NCBI GenBank assembly: GCA_021811315.1 | Contig: JAJZPF010000001.1 | Location: 142,153 to 206,152, forward strand | Source of the DNA: a bacterium | GTDB lineage: Bacteria; Elusimicrobiota; Elusimicrobia; Elusimicrobiales; UBA9959 | DNA: 64,000 nucleotides | Direction of reading: 5' to 3' | Shown here: piece after piece, positions 5,789 to 19,069 of the stretch | Layout of the letters: each line of letters starts with the position of its first letter | Numbering within the stretch: position 1 is the stretch's first letter | Program-made: the position numbers and the translations under genes | The notes under the pieces: model-generated | Database searches by the model: none | What the model was told of the DNA's origin: nothing | Seen by the model: only the letters and a program-made list of their open reading frames with translations

Positions 5789-6856
5789 TCATTTTTCCGG
5801 CGCGGGCGGATCGCTTTCCACAGGGACGGCGGGCCCGAGCAGAACGGCTATCCACCGCGTGCTTTCATGGTGTTCGCAGGCGAACTTCAGCGTCATAGTG
5901 AACGGTACGCACAGCACCGCGCCGATCAGGCCGAGCATCCTTCCCCAGAAGATCAGCGACAGGAAAACCACCAAAGTGGATAAAGACATTTTACGCCCGA
6001 CGAGCTTCGGCCAGACCAGATTGCCTATCGTGAACTGAACCAGCACATAGCCGGCGACTACGAGCGCGGCGCGGCCGGGCCCGAACTGGACAAGGGTGAG
6101 ACTTACCGCCGGGAGCGCGGCTATGATAGAGCCGACATGCGGGATATAGAGCAGCATAAAAGCCAGGAAACCCCAGAGGACGGGGGAATCCACTCCGAGG
6201 ATGGCCAGCCAGACCCCGAGCAGGAACCCCGCGGCCAGGTTGAGCCCGGTAGCGACGACCATATAGCGCTGGATATCATCGAAGAACTTCGTGAACTCCG
6301 GGAATTTCTGCAGTGGATCCCCGAGGACGGCGCGGAGCTTTACCGGAAAGGTCGAGGCCTCGAGCAGGATGAACATCACGGTGAGCAGGATCAGGACGAT
6401 ATTGGAGAGCGCCGCTCCCAGCCCCCCGAGCAGGTCGACGGCCAGCTTCATTATCGCCGCCGGATTGAGATACTCGAGCAGCGCTTTGTCCGTGACGGCG
6501 ACGCCTTTCTTCGCCAGCAGCGCGGTGAGCGCCGAAACTTCTTCCTGCATGCGCTGCTGATAGGAGGGCAGGGAAGCGCTGAAGCCGCCGAGGGACGTGC
6601 TCACCAGCACGCCGCCGACGAGCAGGATCGCGATCAGCCCCGCCAGCACGAGCAGCACCGCGAGAGCGTGCGGGACGCCTTTCCGCTCAAGCCGCTGCGC
6701 CAGCGGCGTGCCAAGGACGGCGAGGAAAACGGCCACAAGGGAGGAAACCAGGGCCGACTGCGCCTGGTTCATGCCCCAGATGATGACCACGAGCGCGGCC
6801 GAGATAACGAGGAAGCGCGTTCCCCCGGGGAAATTGTTCTGTTCGGTCGCCGTCAT
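5789..6856 (-). CDS. AI-2E-family (PerM/YdiK) transporter
   Basis: The 355-residue polytopic membrane protein has the family pattern: two N-terminal helices (about 13-45, 60-90), an amphipathic region, and a C-terminal block of helices with GFLAFMLLYIPHVGSIIAALPA and the conserved FTIGNLVWPKLVGRKMSLSTLVVFLSL (in two parts). Members export autoinducer-2 or act as Na+/H+ antiporters or small-solute permeases; substrate cannot be read from sequence. A GGAGGAG site precedes the ATG. It is the last gene of the BON operon (29 bp gap from the lipoprotein gene), which suggests a role in stress or osmotic response. Confidence 0.9.
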   Translation of the reverse strand: MTATEQNNFPGGTRFLVISAALVVIIWGMNQAQSALVSSLVAVFLAVLGTPLAQRLERKGVPHALAVLLVLAGLIAILLVGGVLVSTSLGGFSASLPSYQQRMQEEVSALTALLAKKGVAVTDKALLEYLNPAAIMKLAVDLLGGLGAALSNIVLILLTVMFILLEASTFPVKLRAVLGDPLQKFPEFTKFFDDIQRYMVVATGLNLAAGFLLGVWLAILGVDSPVLWGFLAFMLLYIPHVGSIIAALPAVSLTLVQFGPGRAALVVAGYVLVQFTIGNLVWPKLVGRKMSLSTLVVFLSLIFWGRMLGLIGAVLCVPFTMTLKFACEHHESTRWIAVLLGPAVPVESDPPAPEK

Positions 6857-6885: not shown

Positions 6886-7197
6886 CTATTTTACGATCAG
6901 GTCGTTCTTCAGGGATTTCACCCCTTTGACGCCTTCCGCGATCTTGCCGGCTTTATCCGCCGCCTCGCGGGAATTTACGAAGCCGCTCAGTTGGACTATG
7001 CCCTGGCGCGTTTCCACGCCGATCTGGAAAGACTTGAAGAAATTGTCGTCGGCAAGCCTGGATTTTACCCTGGTAGTAATGACCGAGTCGTCGATGAACT
7101 CGCCCGCGGTTTCGGGCTTGCCCGTCGTGGCGCAGGCCGCGAAAGCCGCGGCCATGGTAGACAGGACCAAAGTCCGGAGTATAATATTTTTTTTCAT
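6886..7197 (-). CDS. BON-domain lipoprotein
   Basis: A 103-residue protein with a lipoprotein signal (lipobox AAFAAC, Cys at about residue 22) followed by one BON domain (about 37-103) containing the typical IQLSGFV-like strand (GIVQLSGFVNSREAADKAG). BON domains bind phospholipid surfaces and occur in OsmY, Kon and secretins. It should be anchored in an envelope membrane leaflet. It is the third gene of the operon 8209 to 5789 and is a paralogue of the three-BON protein at 7454-8209. Confidence 0.9.
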   Translation of the reverse strand: MKKNIILRTLVLSTMAAAFAACATTGKPETAGEFIDDSVITTRVKSRLADDNFFKSFQIGVETRQGIVQLSGFVNSREAADKAGKIAEGVKGVKSLKNDLIVK

Positions 7198-7270: not shown

Positions 7271-7420
7271 CTACAGGACTTTCCGCCCCCTGATGACCCT
7301 TAACACCACCACGATGACCGCTATTACGAGCAGAATATGGATAAAACCGCCCATAGTGTAGCTGCTCACCAGCCCCAACAGCCACAGGACCACCAGTATT
7401 ACCGCAATTGTTTCCAGCAT
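7271..7420 (-). CDS. 49-aa Lmo0937-like small membrane protein
   Basis: A short reading frame of 49 codons plus TAG, beginning ATG at 7420 behind an AGGAG ribosome site six bases away. The peptide starts MLETIAVILVVLWLLGLVSS and has a second hydrophobic helix (HILLVIAVIVVVLRVI) and a basic end (RGRKVL). This matches the lmo0937-type two-helix membrane peptides found widely beside stress genes (general-stress regulons). It sits between two BON-protein genes (33 bp and 73 bp gaps), so it is almost certainly cotranscribed with them. Confidence 0.88.
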   Translation of the reverse strand: MLETIAVILVVLWLLGLVSSYTMGGFIHILLVIAVIVVVLRVIRGRKVL

Positions 7421-7453: not shown

Positions 7454-8209
7454 CTAGGACGGCTCTACCGTCATCAAATTTTTAACTTTCTTTACGCCGT
7501 TCACGTCTTTTACGAGCTTGGTCACCAGGGCTTTTTCAGCGTCGGTCCGGGCCCGGCCGCCCAGCGTGACCGTGCCGCGCTTGACCGCGACCGTGGTATA
7601 GAGGCCGTTGGTGGAATGATGCAGCACCAGGGCCATCCTTACCAGGGCGGCCACGGAAACGTCGTCGACCTGCTCCTTGGTCGTCCTGGGCTTTTTTTCA
7701 AGGGGCGCGGCCACTACCATCTCGTTTATAACTTTTATCACCCCTTCCACGTCGTTGGCGTATTCCGTGGTCAGGTCTTTTTGCGCCATGCTCGCGGCGC
7801 TGCCCCTGAGGGTAACGATGCCGTCTTTAACGTCCACCTCCGTATCTTTCGCGCTGACGCTCCGGTGGAACAGAAGAGTGGCCTTAACTTTGTCGTGGAA
7901 CCAGGCGTCCGAATTCGCCGTGGGAAGCGAGCCTTTGACTTCCAGCCTGTTGTCCACGCTCCTGACCCCGGGGATGTCCGTCATGGTCACTTCCGCCAAT
8001 GATTTGTGGAAGTATTCGGAAATGATCCCGGTCAGGGTTACCGCCCCGTCCTTTGATTCGATCCTGATATCGTCGCCCTGCAGGTAATTATTGAACACAT
8101 AAGACTGCCTGGCTGAGGTAACGATGTAAACGTCCATCCTGGACGCGTAGGCGGGCGCGCTGAGCGCCAGCAGGCCCGCCGCCAGGGATATTGAAAATAT
8201 TGATCTCAT
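7454..8209 (-). CDS. Periplasmic three-BON-domain (OsmY-like) protein
   Basis: The 251-residue protein has a signal peptide (cleavage near AYA/SRMD, residue about 23) and three consecutive BON domains (about 28-95, 100-170, 180-251), each with the G(A/I)VTLxG core (GAVTLTGIISE, GIVTLRGSAAS, GTVTLGGRART). OsmY-type proteins are periplasmic and induced by osmotic or stationary-phase stress, possibly supporting envelope integrity. The start has an AAGGAG site. It heads a four-gene operon (this gene, the 49-aa peptide, a BON lipoprotein, AI-2E permease) whose promoter at 8247-8313 carries the same operator as the neighbouring two-component genes. Confidence 0.92.
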   Translation of the reverse strand: MRSIFSISLAAGLLALSAPAYASRMDVYIVTSARQSYVFNNYLQGDDIRIESKDGAVTLTGIISEYFHKSLAEVTMTDIPGVRSVDNRLEVKGSLPTANSDAWFHDKVKATLLFHRSVSAKDTEVDVKDGIVTLRGSAASMAQKDLTTEYANDVEGVIKVINEMVVAAPLEKKPRTTKEQVDDVSVAALVRMALVLHHSTNGLYTTVAVKRGTVTLGGRARTDAEKALVTKLVKDVNGVKKVKNLMTVEPS

Positions 8210-8246
8210 TATGGTTCTCCTTGAATACCTTTACTCTTATTTATTA

Positions 8247-8313
8247 AGTATAGCCCTTAGCCGGCCTGGCGGCTATTCGGGATAATGCCCGGTCTGGTAA
8301 GTAGTTTTACGGA
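8247..8313 (-). promoter_or_regulatory. Regulated promoter of the BON operon (regulon site 1 of 4)
   Basis: On the minus strand a TATACT -10 box lies at 8247-8252 (predicted start near 8240, 31-nt leader). There is no good -35 box. Exactly 22 bp upstream of the -10 lies an 18-bp element (8275-8292) matching 12 of 18 bases of the element at 11366-11383. A TCCGTA block lies at 8308-8313 followed by AAACTACT, close to the TCCGTAATACTACT block of the 16.8 kb promoter. The matching layout of four promoters argues for one NarL-type activator. This is the weakest of the four copies. Confidence 0.6.
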
Positions 8314-8355
8314 AGGCGTACGCCCGCGGAAATATATACCGGTGTTTCCAGTTCT

Positions 8356-9675
8356 TTATCCGGGCCTTGCCGAAGCCGGCGTTTCCGCCGCTTTCAAGGC
8401 AGGCACCGACAGGGAGAAATAGAAGCAGACGTTTTTACCGGGCTCGCTTTTAATTTCCAGCGCGCTGCCGTGGAGCAGCAGCATGTCGTTGCAGATCTTA
8501 AGCCCCAGCCCGAAGCCCTCGGCGGCGGCCTGGCCTTCCCCGGTCCTGAAAAATTCCGTCTTTATCTTCTCTATGTCCCCGGCGGCGATGCCCCGGCCGG
8601 AATTCTCTATGCGGAAAGTCACCTGCCCCGCTTTTTCGGCCGCGAGCCTGACCGCTATCCGGCCGTTTTCAGGCGTATATTTTACGGCATTGCCTACCAG
8701 GTTGGAGAGCACCAGCGCCATCGCCTCCTGGTCGGCGTCGATCACGACCGGCTCCTTCGCCATGTCCAGGGTAAAGGAAATTTTCTTCTTCAGCATTAAT
8801 TCTTCCATGACCGAGACCGCGCCGGCCACCAGGCCGCTAAGCGCCAGCGGCTTCTTTTCTATCTTGAACCTGCCGGCCTCCATCCTCGCCTCGCTCAGGA
8901 TATTCTTCACGTAGTTCTTCAGGGATTTCCGTTCATAGGCGAGGGTTCTGTACAGGCCGGCCCGCGCGGGGTCGTTTTTCACCGGCTCGGTTTCCTCCAG
9001 CAGGAAGATCACCGCGTCTATTACCGTGAGCGCGTTATTGAATTCGTGGCTGACGGTGTGCACCATGGCTGATTTAATAGCGGAGGACCTTTGCTCCCTG
9101 CGCAACAGCGACCTGATCTCCAGCAGCAGCCCCATTGCGCCCAAAGCCGCGAGAAAGATGATCGCCAGCTTGTGCGTAGTGGCGGCCAGGCGGTATCTCA
9201 TGGTTTCGCCGTTAATGGCGATGGCGAGCGTGCCCAGGCGCCTGCTTCCCACGGCCACAGGCTCGGAAAAATAATAATATTCCAGGCCGTCCGGGCCCTT
9301 GAAAGACTGCGTCAGGGCGAACCTGGAGTTCCTTGCGGCTATCCCCTCGCGGCTCTCGTCCTTCCCCCCTATTTTGTCGGGCTCGGAGTGGGAGCGTATT
9401 TTACCTGACTGGTCGGACACGACGGCGTATTTTATGACCTTATCCAGCGCCAGGTTATTTATAAGGAAGTGAAGGGAGAACAGGTCGACTTTGGGGAACA
9501 TGGCCTTGCCGGCCAGCCTGGCAGAGATCTCGGCGCGCAGGCGCGTATCCTCGAAGACCGATTTCCTGGCGTCGCTGAGCATCAGCCTGGCGGCCCCAAG
9601 TATCAGCAGGAGGACCAGCGCTGAAAAAGCGATGGACAGATTTACAGCCGTCTCCCTCAGCTTGCCGGTTCTCAT
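8356..9675 (-). CDS. Membrane sensor histidine kinase
   Basis: The 439-residue kinase has a first membrane helix (about 12-33), an extracytoplasmic sensor region (about 34-165, PDC/Cache-like in size), a second helix (about 168-188), then HisKA with the phospho-acceptor His210 in VSHEFNNALTVID, and a HATPase domain with N-box NLVGNAVKYTPENG, G1 SGRGIA and G2 FGLGLKIC. No HAMP or receiver is present. Its ATG overlaps the stop of the small lipoprotein gene by 4 bp, and the NarL-type regulator lies just before that, so barrel, regulator, lipoprotein and kinase form one operon. A HisKA (not HisKA_3) kinase next to a NarL-type regulator is a slightly unusual pairing. Confidence 0.9.
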   Translation of the reverse strand: MRTGKLRETAVNLSIAFSALVLLLILGAARLMLSDARKSVFEDTRLRAEISARLAGKAMFPKVDLFSLHFLINNLALDKVIKYAVVSDQSGKIRSHSEPDKIGGKDESREGIAARNSRFALTQSFKGPDGLEYYYFSEPVAVGSRRLGTLAIAINGETMRYRLAATTHKLAIIFLAALGAMGLLLEIRSLLRREQRSSAIKSAMVHTVSHEFNNALTVIDAVIFLLEETEPVKNDPARAGLYRTLAYERKSLKNYVKNILSEARMEAGRFKIEKKPLALSGLVAGAVSVMEELMLKKKISFTLDMAKEPVVIDADQEAMALVLSNLVGNAVKYTPENGRIAVRLAAEKAGQVTFRIENSGRGIAAGDIEKIKTEFFRTGEGQAAAEGFGLGLKICNDMLLLHGSALEIKSEPGKNVCFYFSLSVPALKAAETPASARPG

Positions 9676-10022
9676 TGCTTTTGCGGCGGCGTGGGCTTAT
9701 TCGCGCCGGAAACGCTCTTTATCTTCCCCCGCAGCTCTACGGCCGGCGGATACGAGGGGTACAGGGTGGAGATCTCGTTAATATAGCCCAGAGCGGCGTC
9801 CATATCGTTGTTGCTGTAGGCGCCGACCGCTTTGTAATACAGGCTTTCCACCGCTTTCGCGTCCTCGGGAGAAAGCTTCGCCGCGGCCTCTTTTTTTACC
9901 GCCGCCTCTTTTTCTACCGGCGCCGCCGGGGGCGGCGTTTTCCGGGCCGCGTGCGCGCAGGCGCAGAACAGAGCCGCGGAAAAAACCGCGAATAGAGCTT
10001 TATTAAGGCGGAGGAAGGGCAT
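9672..10022 (-). CDS. Small alanine/lysine-rich lipoprotein with TPR-like segment
   Basis: A 116-residue protein with a lipoprotein signal (LFCAC lipobox, Cys at about residue 21), a Pro/Ala/Glu/Lys-rich linker (about 28-50) and a single helical pair (about 51-100) resembling a tetratricopeptide repeat (KAVESLYYKAVGAYSNNDMDAALGYINE). It could be a periplasmic accessory of the kinase that its gene overlaps (ATGA junction), for example presenting a signal to the sensor domain; that is inference from context only. No named family was recognised. Confidence 0.75.
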   Translation of the reverse strand: MPFLRLNKALFAVFSAALFCACAHAARKTPPPAAPVEKEAAVKKEAAAKLSPEDAKAVESLYYKAVGAYSNNDMDAALGYINEISTLYPSYPPAVELRGKIKSVSGANKPTPPQKQ

Positions 10023-10036
10023 AAAATGACCGCTGT

Positions 10037-10696
10037 TTATTTTAGCGAGGTCAGGCCGTGCTGGATGGCGTACTTGGTAAGTCCGGCCACGGTCGGGATA
10101 TGAAGTTTATGCGAGATATGCTCCCGGTGCGTCTCGGCCGTCCTTACCCCGATACCGAGCCTGGCGGCTACGCCTTTATTCGAGAGCCCTTCCGCGAGCA
10201 AAGCGACCACCTCCAGCTCGCGCGCCGTAAGCGCCGGGCTCTCCTGCTTGTCCGGAGGGAGCTTGGGCGCGGGGGCTAAGATAGCGTCCGTCATGCCGGC
10301 CGGGAAATGGAGGCCGCCCTTCGACACCTGCCTGATAGCGTCCAGCAGCTCCGCGGTGGGCTGGTCTTTCATCACGTAGCCCTGGACCCCGCAGCGGGCC
10401 ATCCGCACCACATATTCCTCGCTGGAATGGATGCTGAAAGCGATGATCTTGGACTTCGGGACCAGCCTGCGCAGGCGGCGCGCCAGCTCCCCCCCGTCCA
10501 TCAGCGGCAAATTAACGTCGAGCACGATAACGTCTGGAGCCAGTTTCCTGACCTTCCTGAGCGTTTCTTTAGCGTCGGAAGCCTCGCCCACTACCGCTAT
10601 GGAGCGGCTGGTCAGGTAGGAGCGCACCCCTTCGCGCACGATCGGGTGGTCGTCCACGAGGAAGACCTTGATCTTCTTTTGTTTTTCGTCTGTCAC
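10037..10696 (-). CDS. NarL/FixJ-family response regulator
   Basis: The 219-residue regulator has a receiver (residues about 8-125; acidic pair VDDHP, phospho-acceptor Asp60 in VLDVNLP, conserved Lys in VMKDQPT) and a LuxR-type helix-turn-helix (about 155-215; LTARELEVVALLAEGLSNKG and RLGIGVRTAETHREHI). It should bind DNA when phosphorylated, probably by the kinase two genes downstream. It is closely related to the regulators at 12130-12813 and 11412-11954, which points to local duplication. It is one of two candidates for binding the shared operator described at 8247, 11338, 12056 and 16810. Confidence 0.94.
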   Translation of the reverse strand: MTDEKQKKIKVFLVDDHPIVREGVRSYLTSRSIAVVGEASDAKETLRKVRKLAPDVIVLDVNLPLMDGGELARRLRRLVPKSKIIAFSIHSSEEYVVRMARCGVQGYVMKDQPTAELLDAIRQVSKGGLHFPAGMTDAILAPAPKLPPDKQESPALTARELEVVALLAEGLSNKGVAARLGIGVRTAETHREHISHKLHIPTVAGLTKYAIQHGLTSLK

Positions 10697-10714
10697 TTTA
10701 GCATCTCTCTGTTC

Positions 10715-11299
10715 CTAAAAAGAATAATTCACCGCCGCGGTGAGCATGAAGCCCCTGTCTTTGAAATTCCTGCCCAAAGGGTGAGCGACGTCCTGGGAAC
10801 GTATATCCTCGGTCCACAGATAACGGTAAGACCCGCCAAAAGACCAGGCGCTGTCCCTGAAGAACTCTACCCCGGCCCCGGCATGGGGCCCGAAACGGAA
10901 CCCGCTGCTGTCGGTCGGGGTGTCTACCTGGGTGTAATACCAGCCGCCGCCGGCTAAAATATACGGGGCGAACCTGTAGCCATGCGGCATAAGGTATACC
11001 AGCACTGAAAGCTGGATAGGGACAACGCTTACTTTAGTCCCGGAGAACCTGTCCTGGCGCAAGTCCACCGAGCCTTCCAAAGCCCACCTGCGCGTAAGAT
11101 GATAACGCACCTGCACGCCCTCGGCAAAGTCGCCGTGATCGGCGTCCTTGGGGCGATAATACGCGGCGCGCCCGCCTATCGACAAACCGGGCCGGGGCCC
11201 GTGGCTTTCTTCCGCTTCGGATTGTGCGGAAGCCGGCAAAGCAGCGAACAGGCCGGCCGCCAGCAGGATAAAGAAAGCAGAGATCTTGCGTGTAGTCAT
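10715..11299 (-). CDS. Outer-membrane beta-barrel protein
   Basis: Starting at ATG 11299, the product is 194 residues with a signal peptide (cleavage near ASA/QSEAEE) and alternating beta-strand sequence of an eight-stranded OmpA/OmpW-like barrel (GGRAAYYRP, VQVRYHLTRRWALEGSVDL, PYILAGGGWYYTQ, GAGVEFF, FGGSYRYLW), ending in an aromatic residue (NYSF). The upstream in-frame extension to 11356 was not used because the signal peptide begins at 11299 and a predicted transcription start lies near 11331. It is first in the operon with the regulator 10037, the lipoprotein and the kinase, and its promoter has the shared operator. Confidence 0.85.
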   Translation of the reverse strand: MTTRKISAFFILLAAGLFAALPASAQSEAEESHGPRPGLSIGGRAAYYRPKDADHGDFAEGVQVRYHLTRRWALEGSVDLRQDRFSGTKVSVVPIQLSVLVYLMPHGYRFAPYILAGGGWYYTQVDTPTDSSGFRFGPHAGAGVEFFRDSAWSFGGSYRYLWTEDIRSQDVAHPLGRNFKDRGFMLTAAVNYSF

Positions 11300-11337
11300 A
11301 AATAAGATTTTCCGCGGCTTCGCGGTCCCATATATAG

Positions 11338-11405
11338 AGCATACCGCATAGGGCAAACCCTGCCAATGCGGAATTATACGCGTAATAGGACGGTGATAAT
11401 ACGGA
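11338..11405 (-). promoter_or_regulatory. Regulated promoter of the barrel/RR/kinase operon (regulon site 2 of 4)
   Basis: Minus-strand -10 box TATGCT at 11338-11343, followed by CTATATA as in the promoter at 12056. A 22-bp gap separates it from an imperfect dyad at 11366-11383 (ATGCGGAATTATACGCGT on plus), and a distal TCCGTATTA block lies at 11400-11405. Predicted start is near 11331, giving a 32-nt leader. Spacing is identical to the copies at 12056 and 16810. Confidence 0.72.
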
Positions 11406-11411
11406 GAAGGC

Positions 11412-11954
11412 TTAAGTTTTCGACGGCGGTTTTTTTACAAGGCCGCCCTTGAGACGGGAGCCCCTGGAAGGTTTGCGGCCGGGATTCAGCCGCAGGGGTT
11501 TTTTAGCGGAAAGCTTCGGCCTCTTGTCGGGACCGGCGACAGTCATCCCCGCGGGGAAATACCGGCCGCCGCCAAAAACCTGCCTGACCGCGTCGAGCAG
11601 TTCGGAAGTAGGCTGGCTCTTCATCACATAGCCGCTCGCGCCGCAGCGGGCCATCCGCACTACGTATTCCTCGCTGGAATGGATGCTGAAAGCGATGATC
11701 TTGGACTTCGGGACCAGCCTTCGCAGGCTGCCGGCGACTTCCCAGCCGTCCATTGAGGGCAGATTGACGTCCAGCACTATGACATCAGGCGCTATTTTTT
11801 TTACCTTGCGGAAAGCCTCCGGGGCGTCCGAAGCTTCTCCAACCACCTCGATAGCGCAGCTGGTCAGGAAAGCGCGCACTCCGTCCCGCACGATCGGATG
11901 GTCGTCTATCAGGAAAACCCTTATCTTGTTTTCTTTGCAGTCTTTAATGCTCAT
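11412..11954 (-). CDS. Orphan receiver protein; NarL paralogue lacking the HTH domain
   Basis: About 180 residues from ATG 11954 (an in-frame ATG at 12005 is also possible; alignment with its paralogues favours 11954). The receiver (residues about 12-130) is intact with IDDHP, Asp62 in VLDVNLP and the conserved Lys in VMKSQPT, and is very similar to the regulators on both sides. Where they continue into a LuxR-type HTH, this protein has only a basic tail (KRPKLSAKKPLRLNPGRKPS and beyond). It may act as a phosphate sink, a dimerising modulator or a non-specific DNA binder. Its promoter carries the best copy of the regulon operator. Confidence 0.85.
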   Translation of the reverse strand: MSIKDCKENKIRVFLIDDHPIVRDGVRAFLTSCAIEVVGEASDAPEAFRKVKKIAPDVIVLDVNLPSMDGWEVAGSLRRLVPKSKIIAFSIHSSEEYVVRMARCGASGYVMKSQPTSELLDAVRQVFGGGRYFPAGMTVAGPDKRPKLSAKKPLRLNPGRKPSRGSRLKGGLVKKPPSKT

Positions 11955-12055
11955 TGTCCGTTCGCCGGCCATAGACTTCGGCACGGCGCTGCCCGCTTGC
12001 CTCATGCGCCGCCCGCGCGCGCCCCGGCAGGCAAAACTCCGTGTCCTGTATATAA

Positions 12056-12122
12056 AGTATAGCGGTCAGGGCGCGCGCTACCAATGCGTAACTTTACGCA
12101 TGGTCATACGTAGTAATACGGA
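12056..12122 (-). promoter_or_regulatory. Regulated promoter of the orphan receiver gene (regulon site 3 of 4, perfect dyad)
   Basis: Minus-strand -10 box TATACT at 12056-12061, then a 22-bp gap to a perfect 8+8 dyad at 12084-12101 (ATGCGTAA CT TTACGCAT), centred near -43 from the predicted start (about 12049). A distal site CGTATTACTACG (12109-12120, 4-bp arms CGTA/TACG; TCCGTA block 12117-12122) is centred two helical turns further upstream, near -65. There is no -35 box. This is the arrangement expected of an activator-dependent promoter. Confidence 0.78.
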
Positions 12123-12129
12123 GACGCTT

Positions 12130-12813
12130 TTAAGTCTTGGGCTGGACGGGCAGGCCCAGAGAGGTCAGTCCGTGCTGGATCGCGTATTTCGTAAGCCCGG
12201 CGATGGTCATGATATTGAGCTTGTGCGAGACATGCTCGCGATGGGTCTCGGCGGTCCGCACGCTGATGCCCAGCTTGCGCGCTACCTCTTTATTGGCCAG
12301 GCCCTCGGCCAGAAGCGTGAGAACTTCCCTCTCGCGCGTGGTCAAGACCACTTTACCCTCATCCTCCGCGGAAGGCTTGGACTCGGGGGACAGAATAGCG
12401 TCGGACATTTCAGGAGGGAAATAGAGCCCGCCCTTGTGCACCTGCTGGATGGCCTCCACGAGTTTAGCCGTGGGCGCGTCCTTCATCACGTAGCCGTGCG
12501 CGCCGCAGCGCGCCATCCTGACCACGTATTCCTGGCTGGCATGGACGCTGAAACCGATGATCTTGGCGGCGGGAACGGTCAGCCGCAGCCGGCGGGCGAG
12601 CTCGCCGCCGTCGAGGGAAGGCAGGTTCACGTCCAGAATTATAACCTCGGGAGCCAGCTTCTTTACCTTCCGGAGGGCTTCTTTGGCGTCGGCGGCTTCA
12701 CCCACCACCGAAACAGAACCCTGGGCGGTCAGGTAGGACCGCACTCCTTCGCGCACGGCGGGATGATCGTCCACCAGGAACACTTTTATCTTGGGCTGGT
12801 TTTTCTTTTTCAT
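12130..12813 (-). CDS. NarL/FixJ-family response regulator paired with the CheB-CheR kinase
   Basis: The 227-residue regulator has a receiver with VDDHP, Asp61 in ILDVNLP and VMKDAPT, and a C-terminal LuxR HTH (about 155-220, LTTREREVLTLLAEGLANKE; LGISVRTAETHREHV). Its start codon overlaps the end of the HisKA_3-type kinase gene by 4 bp (ATGA). This is the standard pairing of an HPK7 kinase with a NarL regulator, so the kinase at 12810-16754 is its likely partner. Strong similarity to the regulator at 10037 suggests duplication and possible crosstalk. Confidence 0.94.
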   Translation of the reverse strand: MKKKNQPKIKVFLVDDHPAVREGVRSYLTAQGSVSVVGEAADAKEALRKVKKLAPEVIILDVNLPSLDGGELARRLRLTVPAAKIIGFSVHASQEYVVRMARCGAHGYVMKDAPTAKLVEAIQQVHKGGLYFPPEMSDAILSPESKPSAEDEGKVVLTTREREVLTLLAEGLANKEVARKLGISVRTAETHREHVSHKLNIMTIAGLTKYAIQHGLTSLGLPVQPKT

Positions 12814-15800
12814 ACTGTTTCTCCTCCCGCGCCGGACAGGGGAATACGGACGGTGAGCATGGTCCCGGACCCCGGCTTGGAATTAAGTTCCAGGGAGCCC
12901 CCCAACAGTTCCGACCGCTCGCGCATGCTGCCAAGGCCTATGCCCCGCCCGGCCGGCTGCCGCTTTCCGCCAAGGGCAAAGCCTATCCCGTTGTCTTTCA
13001 CGCTCAACACTATCTCTTTCCCCTTGCGGGAGAGATTTACCGAGGCCAGGGTCGCCTTGGAATGTTTTCCGACGTTATTCAGAGCTTCCTGGGCGATACG
13101 GAAAAGCGCCAGCGCAAGGCCGGGCGCTATTTCCGCGGGGACATTCCCCGCTTGCAGCGTTACGGGGACTCCCGCGCGCTCTTTGAACTCGCGGCAAAGC
13201 GTGCGCAGGGCCGGCTCGAGGCCGAGGTCCACAAGTTCAGAGGGCATGAGGTTCTGAGAGACGCGGCGTATTTCCGAAATGGCCTGGCTCAATAGCCCGC
13301 CCACTTTAACTATTTTCCCCGCGGCTTTCCCGTCCAGGGCTATCTCCCCGGGCAGGGACTCCAGCCTGAATTTAACTCCGGAAAGTATCTGGCCGACGCC
13401 GTCGTGGAGTTCGCGGGAAAGGCGCTTCCGCTCGGTTTCCTGGGCGGAGATAGCGCGCATATGCAGCCCGCGCAGTTCGCGTTCGCTCCGCTTTTGTTCC
13501 GTTATATCTCTTTCGGTGGTGGCGACCTCCACGGGCCGGCCATTGTCGTCGCGCAGCACCGTCACCGTAAGCAGCACATCAAGCGTCCGGCCGCCGCGCG
13601 TGAGGCGCTGGGCCTCTATCGGCGCCGCCGAGACCCGGACCAGCTCCCTCGCCCTGATAAGTTTGTTTTCCGGCATGAGCCTTTTGATGCTCATTGCCAG
13701 GGCCTCGGCTTCGGTGTAACCGTACATTTTCTGGGCGCCTTTGTTCCAGGCGATGATCTGGTCATCGAGATCGCAGATGATCACGGCGTCATTGGAGTCC
13801 AGCACCGAAGTGGCCAGCCGCAAAACGGTTTTTTCAGAGAGTTTCCTCTCCCGCTCGGCCCGCTTTTGCTCGGTGATATCACGCTCGGTCTTTGCGACTT
13901 CTACCGCCCGGCCTTTATCGTCGCGCAGCACCGTGACGGTGAGCAGCACGTCCAGGATCCGGCCGTCCTTCGCGCGGCGCCGCGTCTCTATCGGCGCCGC
14001 CGAGACCCGGACCAGGTCCCGCGCTTTTACGCGCATTTTCTCCGGCATGAGCCGGCTGATATTCATTCCAAGGGCTTCCGCTTCCGTATAGCCGTACATT
14101 TTCTGGGCGCCTTTGTTCCAGGCGGTGATCCGGTCGTTCAGATCGCAGATGATCACGGCGTCATTGGAGTCCAGCACCACCGTGGCCAGCCGCTGTACGT
14201 TCTTCTCCGCGAGCTTCCGGTCCTGGATATCTATCAGCGCCATCACGGCGCCCTCGGTCTTGCTCTTTTCGGTCTTGCTCTTGTCGATCCGGTAAGGCCG
14301 CGCCACAAGGTAATGCCAGCGGCCCTGGATATCCTGCACTTCGAGCTTTTGGACCTGCCCGTTCCTGATCACTTTCAGGAGCAGCTGTTTTAGGCCCGGA
14401 AGGAACAGCGGGAGCTTGATCTCCGCGATGGAGCGCCCGATCTTGTCAGCGGACATGCCGAGCGCTTTCTCCGCCGGCGGCGTGAAGCGGCGGACGGCCA
14501 GGTCGGGGTCCAGCAGGAGGATGGGGATATCGATATTTGCCAGGAGATTGGAAAAATCGCTGTTTGCGCGGTTCAAAACCTGGTTGGCTTCCCCGAGCTC
14601 CTCGGTAGAAGTGAGCAGCTCTTCGTTGGTGGACTGAAGCTCTTCCTTGGCCGTTTCGAACTCCTCGTTGACGCTCTGCAGTTCCTCGTTCCCGGAAAGG
14701 AGCTCCTCATTGGAAACCTTTAGCTTCATGTTGGTGGCTTCCTGCTCTTCGATGATGGCCTTAAGCTGCTCTCCGGAAACCGCCAGGTCCTCTTTTAGCT
14801 CTATCACGCGGCGGCTGTCTTTGCCGTTCCTTGCCACCCCGGCCTGCCGCCGGCCTGGCTGGGCTTCGCCGAGCTCTTCGAACAGTATCAGGAAACATTC
14901 CTGGTGCAGGTTCGAGGCCTTGATCGGCAGGACCTCTATCTGGATGCGCTTTGCAACCCCGCCGGGGCCGGGCGCAGCTATCTCCTTGCGCACGGCGCAA
15001 GCGGATTTTTTCGCGATATGGATAGCGGCCCGGAATTCAAGCAGGAACTCCCCCGAAGCCATGCGGCGGAGGTTCATGCTGGGCTTGCCGGGCGCCGGCT
15101 TGAGGTAAGAAGAGGTATCCCCGAGGAAACGCAGGATCTCCAGATCGCCGTTGACTATGACGCCGTTCGGGATATAGCGGGCCGGCAGTACGCTGTCCAG
15201 CTCGCCCTGCAGGTCCAGGGCGTCCTGGGCCGGGTTATTCTGCTCCACCGCGCTTTGCACGAGGCTTTTAGCGGCGTACCCCGGCTCCATGAAACGGCCG
15301 AATTGCACGAAATCAAGGCGGGGATTAGAAGCCGAGGTCCGCTCGAAAAAAACTTTCTTTTTCAGGTTCAGGAGAGAAAGACCGCCAGTATACTCGCCGA
15401 TGCTCTCGGAATGGCCCAGCATCAGGACGCCCCTGGGCTTCAAGGCGTACTGGAAGATCTGCAGGGCTTTTTCCTGCAGGGCCGGGCCAAGATAGATCAG
15501 CAGGTTGCGGCAGCTTACCAGGTCCAGGTTGATGAAAGGCGGGTCCTTCAAAAGGTTTTTGGCGGTAAAGACGCAGCGATCGCGGATAGCCGGGACTATA
15601 CGGTAGCCATCAGGCGTCTCCGTAAAAAAGCGCCGCAGCCGCTCGGGGGAAACATCGGCTTTTATCTTTTTGGAATAGGCTCCCGCCCTGGCTTTTTCTA
15701 TCCCCTCGGGATTCACGTCCGTTGCGAAGATCTGGAAGGGAACCTGGGATGCCCGCGGGCCAAGGAACTCGACCAGGTTTATCGCGTGGGAATAAGCCTC

Positions 15801-16754
15801 TTCACCGGTGGAGCAGCCAGGAACCCAGATGCGGACGGGCGCGGCGGAGGCCCTGTTCTTGAGGAGGCGCGGGTAGATATCGCTCTTTAAAGCTTTGAAG
15901 GCTTCCGGCTCCCGGAAGAACGAAGTCACGGAGATCAGTATATCGCTGTAGAGCTGATCCAGTTCGCCGGGATCCGCTTTCAGCATACGGAAATATTTCC
16001 CCGGCTCGCTGACCCGCTTCAGCGCCATGCGCCTCTGGACGCGCCGGCGGAGAGTGCTCTGCTTATAAAATCCGAACTCTACCCCTTTGGCGGTACGCAG
16101 CAGTTCCAGGATGCCGTTCATTGACTCTTCGCCGGGGGCGCGCTCTTTTTTTCCCGCCTCGCGGGACCGGCTTGCGCCGGCGGCGGAGCCCAGCTTTTTA
16201 CCTATCTCCGCCGGGGAAAGAACGAAGTCCGCATAGCCGGCGACAAAGGCCGAATTAGGCATACTGGGGTGGGCCGCCGTTTTCCCGTCCTGCACGAAAG
16301 TAGTTCCTCCGTTCTCTTTGATCGCTTTCAGACCGTCGGTACCGTCGTCGCCCTCCCCGGACAACAGGCCCCCTATCGCGTTCTTTCCCTGGTCAGCGGC
16401 CAGGGAGCGGAAGAAACTGTCTATAGGGTTGCGCCAGTCAGACTTGTGCCCGAACGAGGAAAGGTGGAGAACTCCCCCCCTTATCTGCATAGCGCGGTTA
16501 GGCGGAAGTATATAGACCCGGTTGGGCAGGACCTTGTCGCCGCTTTTGACTTCGGCGATCGGAAGCTTGGTGTTGCGCACCAGGATGTCGGCCAACTGGC
16601 TTTTATACTGGGGGGCCAAATGGGGGACAAGAATGAAAGCCATGCCTGGCTTCAGCGGCAGGGCGCCCAGCAGGTCCGAAAAAGCCTTTAGGCCGCCGGC
16701 CGAAGCGCCTATCGCGGCAATAGGGAAACCTTTAGGATTCTTATTTTTTTTCAC
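12810..16754 (-). CDS. CheB-CheR-PAS-HisKA_3 multidomain sensor kinase
   Basis: 1314 residues from a GTG at 16754 behind an AGGGG site. Domains in order: CheB methylesterase (about 8-195; Ser18 in GASAGG, His46, Asp138 in GEGDDGTDG), CheR all-alpha and methyltransferase domains (about 215-480; VPGCSTGEEAYS), a coiled coil with NEELxSxNEELQS heptads (about 640-740), three PAS domains (about 745-860, 870-985, 995-1110), HisKA_3 with His1117 in RELHDGVGQ, and HATPase_c (DNGIGF, GRGIGLGSMRER). The receiver normally fused to CheB is absent and no chemoreceptor gene is nearby, so this is a sensory rather than classical chemotaxis protein. PAS2 and PAS3 are a recent tandem duplication. Confidence 0.95.
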   Translation of the reverse strand: MKKNKNPKGFPIAAIGASAGGLKAFSDLLGALPLKPGMAFILVPHLAPQYKSQLADILVRNTKLPIAEVKSGDKVLPNRVYILPPNRAMQIRGGVLHLSSFGHKSDWRNPIDSFFRSLAADQGKNAIGGLLSGEGDDGTDGLKAIKENGGTTFVQDGKTAAHPSMPNSAFVAGYADFVLSPAEIGKKLGSAAGASRSREAGKKERAPGEESMNGILELLRTAKGVEFGFYKQSTLRRRVQRRMALKRVSEPGKYFRMLKADPGELDQLYSDILISVTSFFREPEAFKALKSDIYPRLLKNRASAAPVRIWVPGCSTGEEAYSHAINLVEFLGPRASQVPFQIFATDVNPEGIEKARAGAYSKKIKADVSPERLRRFFTETPDGYRIVPAIRDRCVFTAKNLLKDPPFINLDLVSCRNLLIYLGPALQEKALQIFQYALKPRGVLMLGHSESIGEYTGGLSLLNLKKKVFFERTSASNPRLDFVQFGRFMEPGYAAKSLVQSAVEQNNPAQDALDLQGELDSVLPARYIPNGVIVNGDLEILRFLGDTSSYLKPAPGKPSMNLRRMASGEFLLEFRAAIHIAKKSACAVRKEIAAPGPGGVAKRIQIEVLPIKASNLHQECFLILFEELGEAQPGRRQAGVARNGKDSRRVIELKEDLAVSGEQLKAIIEEQEATNMKLKVSNEELLSGNEELQSVNEEFETAKEELQSTNEELLTSTEELGEANQVLNRANSDFSNLLANIDIPILLLDPDLAVRRFTPPAEKALGMSADKIGRSIAEIKLPLFLPGLKQLLLKVIRNGQVQKLEVQDIQGRWHYLVARPYRIDKSKTEKSKTEGAVMALIDIQDRKLAEKNVQRLATVVLDSNDAVIICDLNDRITAWNKGAQKMYGYTEAEALGMNISRLMPEKMRVKARDLVRVSAAPIETRRRAKDGRILDVLLTVTVLRDDKGRAVEVAKTERDITEQKRAERERKLSEKTVLRLATSVLDSNDAVIICDLDDQIIAWNKGAQKMYGYTEAEALAMSIKRLMPENKLIRARELVRVSAAPIEAQRLTRGGRTLDVLLTVTVLRDDNGRPVEVATTERDITEQKRSERELRGLHMRAISAQETERKRLSRELHDGVGQILSGVKFRLESLPGEIALDGKAAGKIVKVGGLLSQAISEIRRVSQNLMPSELVDLGLEPALRTLCREFKERAGVPVTLQAGNVPAEIAPGLALALFRIAQEALNNVGKHSKATLASVNLSRKGKEIVLSVKDNGIGFALGGKRQPAGRGIGLGSMRERSELLGGSLELNSKPGSGTMLTVRIPLSGAGGETV
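13497..14240 (-). repeat. Tandem 372-bp duplication encoding PAS2 and PAS3 of the sensor kinase
   Basis: Two copies of about 372 bp (roughly 13497-13868 and 13869-14240) encode nearly the same PAS-PAC unit. Matching blocks such as CGCAGCACCGT (13551 and 13923) and GATCACGGCGTCATTGGAGT (near 13778 and 14150) recur at the same 372-bp offset. At protein level both contain SNDAVIICDL, WNKGAQKMYGYTEAEAL and ERDITEQKR. The period of 124 codons keeps the frame. Confidence 0.85.
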
Positions 16755-16809
16755 ATGACCCCTGAGGTAACTATACCTTGTCTAAGTTGCCTGTACAAGG
16801 CCAATACCA

Positions 16810-16877
16810 ATTATATCCTATAGGGCGGAGAGCAAAAATCCGTACTTTCACGCGCTTTTATCAGTAGTATTACGGAT
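16810..16877 (-). promoter_or_regulatory. Regulated promoter of the CheB-CheR kinase operon (regulon site 4 of 4)
   Basis: Minus-strand -10 box TATAAT at 16810-16815 (predicted start about 16803, 49-nt leader to the GTG). The proximal operator half lies 22 bp upstream at 16838-16855 (12 of 18 matches to the perfect dyad at 12084) and the distal TCCGTAATACTACT block ends at 16877. The spacing equals that of the promoters at 11338 and 12056, indicating that the kinase/regulator pair is autoregulated. Confidence 0.7.
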
Positions 16878-16886
16878 AAGGGCGGA

Positions 16887-18002
16887 TCACAAGCCTGAAC
16901 GCAGGATGAGTAGCGGAAGTTCGGAATCGGCGAAAAGGCGCATCGGGGGACCCCAGGCGCCGGCGCCGGAGGTCACGTAGACGCTGAAATTACCGGCTTT
17001 ATACAGGCCGTAGAAATATTTGAACATTTTCCGTTCCAGCGGGCCGAAAGGGAAGATCTGGCCCGCGTGGGTGTGGCCGCTTAAAACGAGGCCGGAACCG
17101 GCGGCGGTTATCTCGTCGAAGCCCTGCGGCTGGTGCGAAAGGAAAACAAGGGGCTTTGAACGGTCCAGCGCGGCCGCCAGTTTCCTGACGGCCTCTCCGT
17201 CCCCCCGGCGCAGGTCGTCGACTCCGGCCACGAGCAGCCCCGGAACAGGTTCATAGACCTGGCCGCGCAGCATTTTCACCCCGCAGCTCTCGAAGAAACC
17301 CGCCGCGACCTCTCCGGCGGTGAACATATCGTGGTTCCCGAGCACCGCGGCCTTGCCGTAGCGGGAATAGATGCTCTTGATGATGCCGCAGGTACCTTCT
17401 GGCATGGGCTCGCGTCTTTCCGAGAAATCCCCGGTTATAACTATCAGGTCAGGCCGAACCTCGTTCAGGGTTGCGGCTATTTTCTCAAGCCGCTCCAGCT
17501 TTATCATCCGTCCCAGGTGCAGGTCGGAGATCTGCGCTATAGTGAAGCCGTCCAGAGCCTTCGGCAGGCCTTTTACGGTTACTTCCACGCGCTTGAGGCG
17601 CGGCGTCTCGGCCCCGCTCCAGACGGCCAGGGCCACGAAGGCGGCCGCAAGCAGAAGCACGCCGCCCCCGGCCGCCCTCGTCCTCGCCCAATCCACTCCC
17701 AGGCCGTTCAGGACGGTGAGCGAAAGGTCGCAGGCAAGAAGCACCCAGAAAGAAATGAAAGCGCTCCCGAAACCGAATAAAGCCAGCCAAAGCATTATAT
17801 CCGCGATGCCGCCGAAATGGGTAGAGGCAAAAAACCGCGCGAGCGGATAAAAAGCCGAAAGAAGAAGCGCCGTTTCATAAACTATGAACCGGCCTTTCGG
17901 CCCCAGCCTAAGCCTGAAAGCCAGCCAGAGCGCGATATAAACATTGAAAGCCAGGTAAAACAACGCCAGCCCCAGCCCGAAAAGATGAAAAGGATTTTTC
18001 AT
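16887..18002 (-). CDS. Membrane-anchored metallophosphoesterase (YkuE/YaeI-like)
   Basis: From ATG 18002 the product is 371 residues: four N-terminal hydrophobic segments (about 5-130) and a C-terminal calcineurin-like phosphoesterase domain (about 145-371) with ISDLHLGRM, ITGDFSERR, LGNHDMF, LSHQPQGF and SGHTHAGQIFPFG. These are the metal-binding blocks of the YkuE/YaeI type (UDP-2,3-diacylglucosamine pyrophosphatase-like or related phosphohydrolases). A longer in-frame extension to 18233 lies wholly inside the adenosine deaminase gene and was rejected. The ATG overlaps the deaminase stop (ATGA), so the two are coupled. Confidence 0.9.
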   Translation of the reverse strand: MKNPFHLFGLGLALFYLAFNVYIALWLAFRLRLGPKGRFIVYETALLLSAFYPLARFFASTHFGGIADIMLWLALFGFGSAFISFWVLLACDLSLTVLNGLGVDWARTRAAGGGVLLLAAAFVALAVWSGAETPRLKRVEVTVKGLPKALDGFTIAQISDLHLGRMIKLERLEKIAATLNEVRPDLIVITGDFSERREPMPEGTCGIIKSIYSRYGKAAVLGNHDMFTAGEVAAGFFESCGVKMLRGQVYEPVPGLLVAGVDDLRRGDGEAVRKLAAALDRSKPLVFLSHQPQGFDEITAAGSGLVLSGHTHAGQIFPFGPLERKMFKYFYGLYKAGNFSVYVTSGAGAWGPPMRLFADSELPLLILRSGL

Positions 18003-19069
18003 GCTGAGGCTTCGCCTCGACAGACTCCTATCGAGGTTGAGCCTCGATAGGGAAAGCCAAGTTCTTTGACGGCTTGCTGTTTTTTGTCGGCGGGGAGGAA
18101 TGAGGCCTCCGCGGCGCATTCGAGCGTGTAAGCGATATCTTCGAAAGAAAGGCCCATTTTCTCCACGGCCAGGAGGTATTCCTTGTTCAAATGGGTGTCC
18201 AGGATCTCCGGATCGTCGGCGCCTATAGTGCACTTTACGCCGGCTTTGATGAATTTTTTAAGCGGGTGAGCTTCTATTGAGGTCACCGCCCGGGTCAGGT
18301 AATTGCTCCAGGGATTGGTCTCGACCGTAATAGCGGATTTTTTTATAAGTTCGATAGTCCTGCCCGATTTGTCGTCGGCGGCTTTAACTCCGTGGCCTAT
18401 CCGCCGCGGCTTAAGCGTTCTTATCGTTTCGCCTATCTGCGAATAATGCCCCTCTTCACCCGAGTGAACGGTAAGCGGCAGGCCCGCCTCATGCAGTTTT
18501 TTTGCCGCCTCTTTATAAAGAGCCGGCGGGTAATCGGCCTCATTGTCGGCCAGGTCGAAGCCTATTACGGTTTTTTTATTCTTAACGGCGAAAGCCGCGG
18601 TTCTTTCGGCCGACTCCACGCCGTAGATGCGGGAAGCGATAAGGATGAGGCCGCAGACCATATTGCTGCTTTTCTCGAATTTTACCGCCGTGGAATTTAT
18701 GAGGTCATGGGCTTTCTGCCAGTCCAGCCCGGCTTTTTTGAACATGAAGTCCGGGCTGTAGCGCAGCTCAAGCAGCCGGATATTCTCTTTTTTATAAGCG
18801 TCTTCGAGCGCTTCGAAGGTGATTCGCTCCACGGCTTCGTAAGAAGCGAAAGAAGCCTGCGCCAGCTCGAACATCCCGAGCACTTCCCTGAGCGAGGCGC
18901 CGGGGGCGCGCAGTTTGTAGATACGGTCCAGGCCGGCGGGATCGAAGGTGGGGAGCTTTAAATTGTTTTTTCGGGCGAGGTCTATGACGGTTCCGACGCG
19001 CACGCAGCCCTCAATATGGCGGTGGAGCTCCGCCTTGGGCATGGCGCGTATTTTTTCTTCCGCCGTCAT
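17999..19069 (-). CDS. add: Adenosine deaminase
   Basis: The 356-residue enzyme shows all metal and catalytic blocks of the adenosine/adenine deaminase family: His16 and His18 in ELHRHIEG, the LPLTVHSGEEG block with the catalytic Glu, RIGHGVKA, and the C-terminal CTIGADDPEI. It hydrolyses adenosine (or a related aminopurine) to inosine in the cytoplasm. Exact substrate cannot be fixed from these motifs alone. It is followed with overlap by a phosphoesterase and preceded by an unknown gene and a PfkB-type kinase. The last 16 codons run through two inverted repeats (18006-18051) and look like an added tail. Confidence 0.9.
   Translation of the reverse strand: MTAEEKIRAMPKAELHRHIEGCVRVGTVIDLARKNNLKLPTFDPAGLDRIYKLRAPGASLREVLGMFELAQASFASYEAVERITFEALEDAYKKENIRLLELRYSPDFMFKKAGLDWQKAHDLINSTAVKFEKSSNMVCGLILIASRIYGVESAERTAAFAVKNKKTVIGFDLADNEADYPPALYKEAAKKLHEAGLPLTVHSGEEGHYSQIGETIRTLKPRRIGHGVKAADDKSGRTIELIKKSAITVETNPWSNYLTRAVTSIEAHPLKKFIKAGVKCTIGADDPEILDTHLNKEYLLAVEKMGLSFEDIAYTLECAAEASFLPADKKQQAVKELGFPYRGSTSIGVCRGEASA
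18006..18051. repeat. Two inverted repeats at the 3' end of the adenosine deaminase gene
   Basis: A perfect 10-bp inverted repeat with a 5-bp loop lies at 18027-18036 and 18042-18051 (CCTATCGAGG / CCTCGATAGG). A 5-bp hairpin GAGGC-TTC-GCCTC lies at 18006-18018. Both are inside the last codons of the deaminase and just before the start of the next gene. Confidence 0.8.

Follow-up and report, generated by a model that had tools for sequence, protein, structure and literature searches.

The window analysed here, a stretch of 64,000 nucleotides from an Elusimicrobiales bacterium, is part of a 282-kb contig (C26) of a 2.67-Mb genome that is assembled in 48 contigs and 63% complete. Four minus-strand promoters in the window, called P1 to P4, carry the same two-part element upstream of the -10 hexamer, in a cluster that also encodes two NarL/FixJ-type response regulators. 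Read 5' to 3' on the transcribed strand, the common block of 67-68 bp consists of box A (13 bp, TCCGTAnTACTAC), a gap of 12-13 bp, box B (16 bp, GYAnAATTCCGnATnG), 20 bp and a -10 hexamer of the TATACT type. The gap between the boxes is 12 bp in P1, P3 and P4, and 13 bp in P2, the promoter at 11338. The parts of the four promoters are as follows.

8301..8313, minus strand: P1 box A, TCCGTAAAACTAC, putative distal operator half
8273..8288, minus strand: P1 box B, GCATTATCCCGAATAG, putative proximal operator half
8247..8252, minus strand: P1 -10 hexamer, TATACT
11393..11405, minus strand: P2 box A, TCCGTATTATCAC
11364..11379, minus strand: P2 box B, GTATAATTCCGCATTG
11338..11343, minus strand: P2 -10 hexamer, TATGCT
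12110..12122, minus strand: P3 box A, TCCGTATTACTAC
12082..12097, minus strand: P3 box B, GTAAAGTTACGCATTG, overlapping a dyad noted earlier at 12084-12101
12056..12061, minus strand: P3 -10 hexamer, TATACT
16864..16876, minus strand: P4 box A, TCCGTAATACTAC
16836..16851, minus strand: P4 box B, GTGAAAGTACGGATTT
16810..16815, minus strand: P4 -10 hexamer, TATAAT

All four -10 hexamers had been named in a first-pass annotation of this DNA, and all are present on the minus strand where it had placed them, as are the elements upstream; that the four promoters share a two-part element is confirmed. The TCCGTA block described there as lying at a fixed distance is equally placed in three promoters and 1 bp further away in the 11338 promoter. 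The perfect dyad reported at 12084-12101 (ATGCGTAACTTTACGCAT) is real: two arms of 8 bp repeat each other without a mismatch in inverted orientation, and the 2 bp between them are not self-complementary. As a model for the proximal element it was less well chosen, being an unusual copy, and GYAnAATTCCGnATnG describes the element better.

The promoters stand before the following genes, where the shared transcription of later genes with the first gene is, as for all sites in this study, inferred from spacing.

7454..8209, minus strand: first gene behind P1, protein with three BON-domain stretches (Pfam BON 6.6e-39), start 37 nt after the -10
7271..7420, minus strand: putative P1 operon, 49-residue peptide, DUF5670 (1.2e-16)
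6886..7197, minus strand: putative P1 operon, second BON protein (2.5e-19)
5789..6856, minus strand: putative P1 operon, AI-2E family permease (3.3e-44)
10715..11302, minus strand: gene behind P2, outer-membrane beta-barrel protein (Pfam OMP_b-brl 5.1e-18)
10037..10696, minus strand: NarL/FixJ-type response regulator 10037, candidate binder (Response_reg 3.2e-28, GerE 4.2e-12)
9672..10022, minus strand: putative P2 operon, small protein without a Pfam match
8356..9675, minus strand: putative P2 operon, histidine kinase (HisKA, HATPase_c)
11412..12005, minus strand: gene behind P3, stand-alone receiver with a lysine/arginine-rich tail (Pfam Response_reg only), start codon uncertain
12810..16754, minus strand: gene behind P4, CheB-CheR-PAS-HisKA_3-HATPase histidine kinase (CheB 5.8e-51, CheR 1.5e-48, HisKA_3 3.4e-13)
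12130..12813, minus strand: NarL/FixJ-type response regulator 12130, leading candidate binder (Response_reg 9.6e-27, GerE 5.9e-16)

In this genome, P4 precedes the operon of 12130, whose gene overlaps that of the CheB-CheR kinase by 4 bases, and P2 precedes the operon of 10037. These two regulators are the only proteins with a DNA-binding domain among the eight window proteins scanned. Both combine a receiver with a C-terminal GerE (LuxR-type) helix-turn-helix in Pfam matches over the cut-off, and so does a third close paralogue, 76% identical to 12130 and 24 kb upstream of the window cluster (L012:17012-17695, minus strand). The third paralogue is partnered by a PAS-HisKA_3 kinase (L012:17706-19103, minus strand), and a profile scan of the genome gave no match directly before this pair. 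The full-length solved structures nearest to 12130 are those of VraR (5.9e-33) and NarL (1e-32), with DevR (3c3w, 4e-27) and FixJ (5xso, 1.5e-13) further off, and homologues of 69-89% identity occur in metagenome-assembled genomes of Elusimicrobia. The receiver-only protein 11412, a paralogue of the regulators beside it, keeps the phospho-acceptor motif LDVNLP; Pfam finds no GerE helix-turn-helix in it, and it has a basic tail instead, with 14 lysines or arginines and 1 aspartate or glutamate from residue 141. The tails of the receivers in this slot in six other genomes tend the same way: the corresponding counts are 16 and 1 in G019 and 11 and 0 in G002, and the receivers of G008, G009 and G023 have 7, 6 and 5 basic residues and that of G020 has 3, all without an acidic one.

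A position matrix trained on the four window blocks only was scanned over C26 and found eight further places outside the window, with scores of 37.5, 37.0, 34.9, 30.1, 30.1, 29.4, 23.7 and 22.1. The contig was also simulated 20 times with a first-order Markov model; the highest score stayed at 11.6-16.3 in 19 of these runs and reached 22.2 in the other, so that the lowest of the eight places is within the reach of chance. The four blocks passed this held-out test on the rest of C26, and, that one run apart, scores comparable with those of the real contig were missing from the simulations, so that the comparison with simulated sequence leaves the claim standing. Below 22, real and chance places are mixed: the next four scored 17.3, 16.9, 16.8 and 16.0, and three of them later entered the profile, which missed the other (+97281). 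This profile, a sequence-only model built from 17 aligned blocks, was searched against the contigs of the genome and then against relatives; its match to P1 (profile R1) covers 8246-8315 with 52.1 bits. It found 18 sites in the genome at E-values of 3.3e-8 or lower, and the next match came only at 0.002. Sixteen of them fall in the 26.5-159 kb part of C26 (within 133 kb), one on C12 and one on C29, and two (C26:26550 and 26683) precede one and the same gene. The picture of four local promoters was thus too small, and a regulon confined to the window was rejected on the strength of the eight further places on C26 and the 18 genomic sites. Since 17 of the 18 were training blocks of the profile, the real test lies in other genomes. 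At two of the sites, C26:108058 and C26:112547 (L100:13057-13126 and 17546-17615), promoters and leaders are near-identical before unrelated genes, for a 2-oxoacid:ferredoxin oxidoreductase and a flavin disulphide reductase, which suggests recent copying of a promoter.

Two samples of genomes were scanned, 41 relatives (25 of the same genus and 16 of another family) and 198 genomes drawn across the phylum, in both cases with stricter filters for sites that lose some weak matches. Strong sites (E-value up to 1e-9) occur in 11 of the 25 same-genus genomes and a regulator of at least 64% identity in nine, all of which have strong sites. None of the 16 genomes of the other family has a strong site, and the best E-value there is 0.019. 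In the phylum sample (sites at E-values up to 1e-5, regulator up to 1e-75), eight genomes have sites, nine have the regulator and eight have both (Fisher, 1.8e-13); the eight belong to families f1 and f7, and the ninth regulator genome to family f8. Because kinship inflates tests of co-occurrence, the association was examined again on a tree built from the gyrB of 28 chosen genomes (of 30; G006 had no match, and G020, with a partial match 36% identical, was left out), with good support for 13 of its 25 inner branches. On this tree each trait undergoes nine changes or more, and among seven independent pairs an average of 5.5 differ in the same direction and 0.0 in opposite directions (median p 0.031, range 0.031-0.125). 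The association of regulator and sites is kept on the gyrB tree; at the genus level it is partly confounded by kinship. The proposal that a NarL-type regulator from this locus acts on the element is supported by this joint occurrence of gene and sites across genomes. Regulator 12130 matches at 67-72% in family f7, where gyrB is 60-61% identical, and a transfer of the system between families f1 and f7 is possible.

The sites also recur in the same slots, counted over the relatives' loci that hold each gene plus an upstream stretch. A site precedes the homologue of the barrel gene in 11 of 11 loci (28-308 bp upstream), the BON gene in seven of nine and the CheB-CheR kinase in five of eight, one of the last being weak and distant (17.1 bits, 409 bp away). 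Between 12130 and the next barrel or regulator gene, all eight loci of seven genomes have a site, which directly follows 12130 in six and lies behind a receiver gene that comes in between in the other two; weak matches (18.5 and 15.9 bits) account for two of the eight. The claim also withstood the possibility, raised with it, that homologous loci in relatives lack the element.

The anatomy of the element was studied in 110 sites, made up of 53 of 61 and 49 of 56 rows of two scans and 8 more of the 18 sites of the own genome, rows that were weak, partial or overlapping having been dropped; columns and dyads were tabulated for the best 94 of the 110 (score of at least 28). The two boxes are 12 bp apart in 85 of the 94, and box B lies 20 or 21 bp from the -10 in 89, a near-constancy that is partly built in, because the profile that found the sites has this spacing. 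The dyad centres are not imposed by the profile. With transcription predicted to start 7 nt after the -10, a setting on which all dyad-centre coordinates depend, the best two of 56 scored centres fall at -65.5 (61% paired) and -43.5 (43%), which supports the earlier suggestion that a NarL-type regulator binds around -43 and -65. The two centres are 22 bp, or two helical turns, apart, which would put both boxes on the same face of the helix. The sequence of box A approaches the palindrome GTAATATTAC and that of box B GYAnAATTCC; box B is the weaker dyad and occupies the place of a -35, where TTG is found in 13 of the 94 sites and the hexamer is mostly poor or lacking. Conservation extends to -73, as two dyads, and the letters of the spacers vary while boxes and spacing are kept. 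Back-to-back promoters may overlap in box A, as in L112 at 8154-8223 (minus strand) and 8207-8271 (plus strand). As a rule the sites lie outside coding sequence and before genes: 68 of the 110 stand within 110 nt before an open frame of at least 150 codons, against 13% of random places, and 21 lie inside a long open frame, against 80%.

Outside the window, the genes behind sites encode two DUF7948/SBBP beta-propeller proteins with weak matches to secretion tails; a protein that matches CHU_C weakly, with a UPF0164/PorV-like one behind it; a glycerophosphodiesterase, with phospholipase A1 on the other strand; catalase with superoxide dismutase and a hydrolase; flavin disulphide reductase with superoxide dismutase and a rubrerythrin-like protein; 2-oxoacid:ferredoxin oxidoreductase; an Omp85-type protein with a receiver protein; a receiver protein, a GAF-SpoIIE phosphatase and a STAS protein; a small protein with a weak barrel match, a holin-like protein and an AI-2E permease; and heptosyltransferase-family and DUF6627 proteins. 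The two beta-propeller genes are large (L012:9291-12857 and L012:14141-16861, both on the minus strand) and their tails are weakly type IX-like; behind the second stands the gene of a weakly OMPP1-like protein, and the protein encoded behind the first resembles it by eye. Over all genomes, the first frames downstream of sites came to 102 distinct ones, of which all but four long kinases were scanned; at E-values up to 0.001 these 98 gave 20 OMP_b-brl, 10 SBBP, 8 BON, 7 receiver, 7 HisKA, 7 CHU_C and 4 P-type ATPase matches; as the frames were chosen by length, a few may not be genes. Target families such as catalase, superoxide dismutases, rubrerythrin-like proteins, BON proteins, phospholipase A1, glycerophosphodiesterase, barrels, beta-propeller surface proteins and SpoIIE-STAS proteins lead us to predict a regulon of general or of oxidative and envelope stress.

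We consider it probable that the four blocks are one two-part operator, present in 18 genomic copies, which would be bound as two dimers by the NarL/FixJ-type regulators of the cluster and would activate transcription. Several observations weigh against this interpretation. In G004 and G011, both of the same genus, no close regulator accompanies the sites, a regulator (66%) occurs without any site at E-values up to 1e-5 in G112, and by co-occurrence the regulators of the cluster are not distinguishable from its kinases. Box A by itself is not enriched over its reversed control, and the enrichment belongs to the whole spaced block; as a lone detector, box A gave 11 matches in the genome (at most one mismatch) against 12 for the reversed pattern, and was rejected. 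The statement that none of the four promoters has a -35 box was too strong, since -35-like hexamers are kept at a 17-bp spacing in P2 (TTGGCA, 5/6) and P3 (TTGGTA, 4/6). In relatives, the kinase slot of P4 has no site in three of eight loci (L024, L032 and L123), nor has the BON slot in two of nine. The stress label is taken from gene families only, and many of the targets are surface proteins.

The element could also be real and be bound by a regulator encoded outside the cluster, the cluster being just another target. The sites of G004 and G011 would then need no close regulator, and other NarL-type regulators, of 30-43% identity, do exist in these genomes. Distant regulators of 41-43%, however, are also found in genomes without strong sites (G010, G013, G015, G017, G018 and G024), while each of the nine same-genus genomes with the close regulator has sites, and no window protein scanned other than 12130 and 10037 has a DNA-binding domain. 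Moreover, at the DNA level the two strong sites of G011 have counterpart sites in its sister G002, on contigs other than that of the regulator cluster of G002, so the cluster may have been lost, not assembled or not binned in G011, whose sites look like remnants of the regulon of its sister. An outside binder is therefore regarded as unlikely.

Much less likely still is that an alternative sigma factor uses the element as its promoter, a reading that the near-constant distance to the -10 and the stress-like targets would suit. The -10 is an ordinary TATACT, conservation reaches -73 in two dyads 22 bp apart, and sigma contacts are not known to extend so far upstream; a specificity through alternative -35 and -10 sequences was not found, the conserved parts being a TATACT-like -10 and the upstream dyads. 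In the complete genome of relative G019, Sigma70_r2 matches a frame of 584 codons and eight shorter ones, of 182-363 codons. We give the least credence, next to none, to the idea that the blocks descend from a duplicated promoter or a repeat without a shared regulator: C26:108058 and 112547 are indeed near-identical over block and leader, but the genes downstream are of different families, the boxes are conserved in excess of the spacers with their spacing kept, and sites recur across families f1 and f7 together with the regulator.

If the regulators of the cluster are the binders, phosphorylated 12130 and/or 10037, and possibly the third paralogue, would bind box A and box B cooperatively. 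Both dimers would sit on one face of the helix, the proximal one on box B standing in for a -35, and the bound regulator would activate transcription by contacting RNA polymerase that carries the housekeeping sigma factor. Positive autoregulation is predicted from the sites before the kinase-regulator operon, the barrel-regulator-kinase operon and the receiver-only gene. The earlier view that the regulator's own genes are among the targets fits in so far as sites stand before genes of the signalling operons, in relatives too; it is weakened by the kinase slot, filled in only five of eight loci, so that autoregulation through the kinase promoter is not universal. As a guess, the receiver-only protein 11412 might be a brake, acting as a phosphate sink or as a partner.

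The Dev box of DevR/DosR, the regulator of the dormancy regulon of Mycobacterium tuberculosis, is GGGACT-like, and this operator differs from the element described here. The partner kinases of the DevS/DosT type carry GAF, and Pfam finds no GAF domain in the two window kinases; the kinase in the 12130 operon is of the CheB-CheR-PAS-HisKA_3 type and not DevS/DosT, and GAF-PAS kinases are found among the site-preceded genes of relatives. In another difference from DevR/DosR, many genes preceded by sites here encode outer-membrane or surface proteins, and to our knowledge neither a physical clustering of targets nor a basic-tailed receiver is known from DevR. DevR/DosR is described with sites set close together, of which the one nearer the start overlaps the -35, with cooperative binding and autoregulation (PMC3029386), and with a regulon of about 48 genes (PMC4973870). 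The resemblance lies in a NarL-subfamily regulator and in this tight arrangement with one site over the -35, for which the counterparts here are centred at -65.5 and -43.5 from the predicted start. FixJ of rhizobia belongs to the same regulator family, and its consensus from systematic evolution of ligands by exponential enrichment (GTAGTTTCCC) and a FixJ site (TAAGTAATTTCCCTTA) (PMC4999443) resemble box B (GTATAATTCC). On fixK, FixJ protects two regions, -69 to -44 and -57 to -31, and its regulon is small and concerned with nitrogen fixation (PMC4999443). Among solved structures, VraR, NarL and DevR match 12130 better than FixJ does, and no FixL-like partner was noticed here, although no search was aimed at one.

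VraR and NarL are the best full-length solved relatives of 12130. Their target sequences and functions differ, the half-sites of NarL being heptamers of the TACYYMT type, compared with GTA-N4-TAC here. The general stress responses run by the sigma factors RpoS, SigB and EcfG have similar targets (catalase, superoxide dismutase and OsmY-type BON proteins). In contrast to these, specificity that resides in an upstream two-site operator with an ordinary -10 predicts an activator and not a sigma factor. RpoS is reported to control katE (PMC5405132). By analogy, the element appears to work like the promoters of DevR/DosR and FixJ, and we count it in neither of these regulons. Among the literature matches listed, none described such a regulon for the phylum; it is a new regulon with a mode of working that is already known.

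A more far-reaching picture, which we put forward tentatively and hold to be rather doubtful, is that of a self-contained general-stress island of about 130 kb. It would bring together kinases, two or three NarL-type paralogues, a receiver with a basic tail as brake and most of the target operons under one two-dimer operator, would be gained or lost as a unit across Elusimicrobia, and would have an activator do the job that falls to a stress sigma factor in other phyla.

The analysis provides an exact, searchable operator and a list of targets for a two-component circuit in this bacterial group; the circuit is predicted to govern surface proteins as well as oxidative and envelope defence. The operator could be tested in a laboratory strain of Escherichia coli, without culturing the source organism, and the patchy joint presence of regulator and sites offers a way to study the gain and loss of a whole regulon. 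Directly upstream of P4, the frame at 16887-18233 (minus strand) looks metallophosphoesterase-like by eye, and it is found in the same place in G019 (84%).

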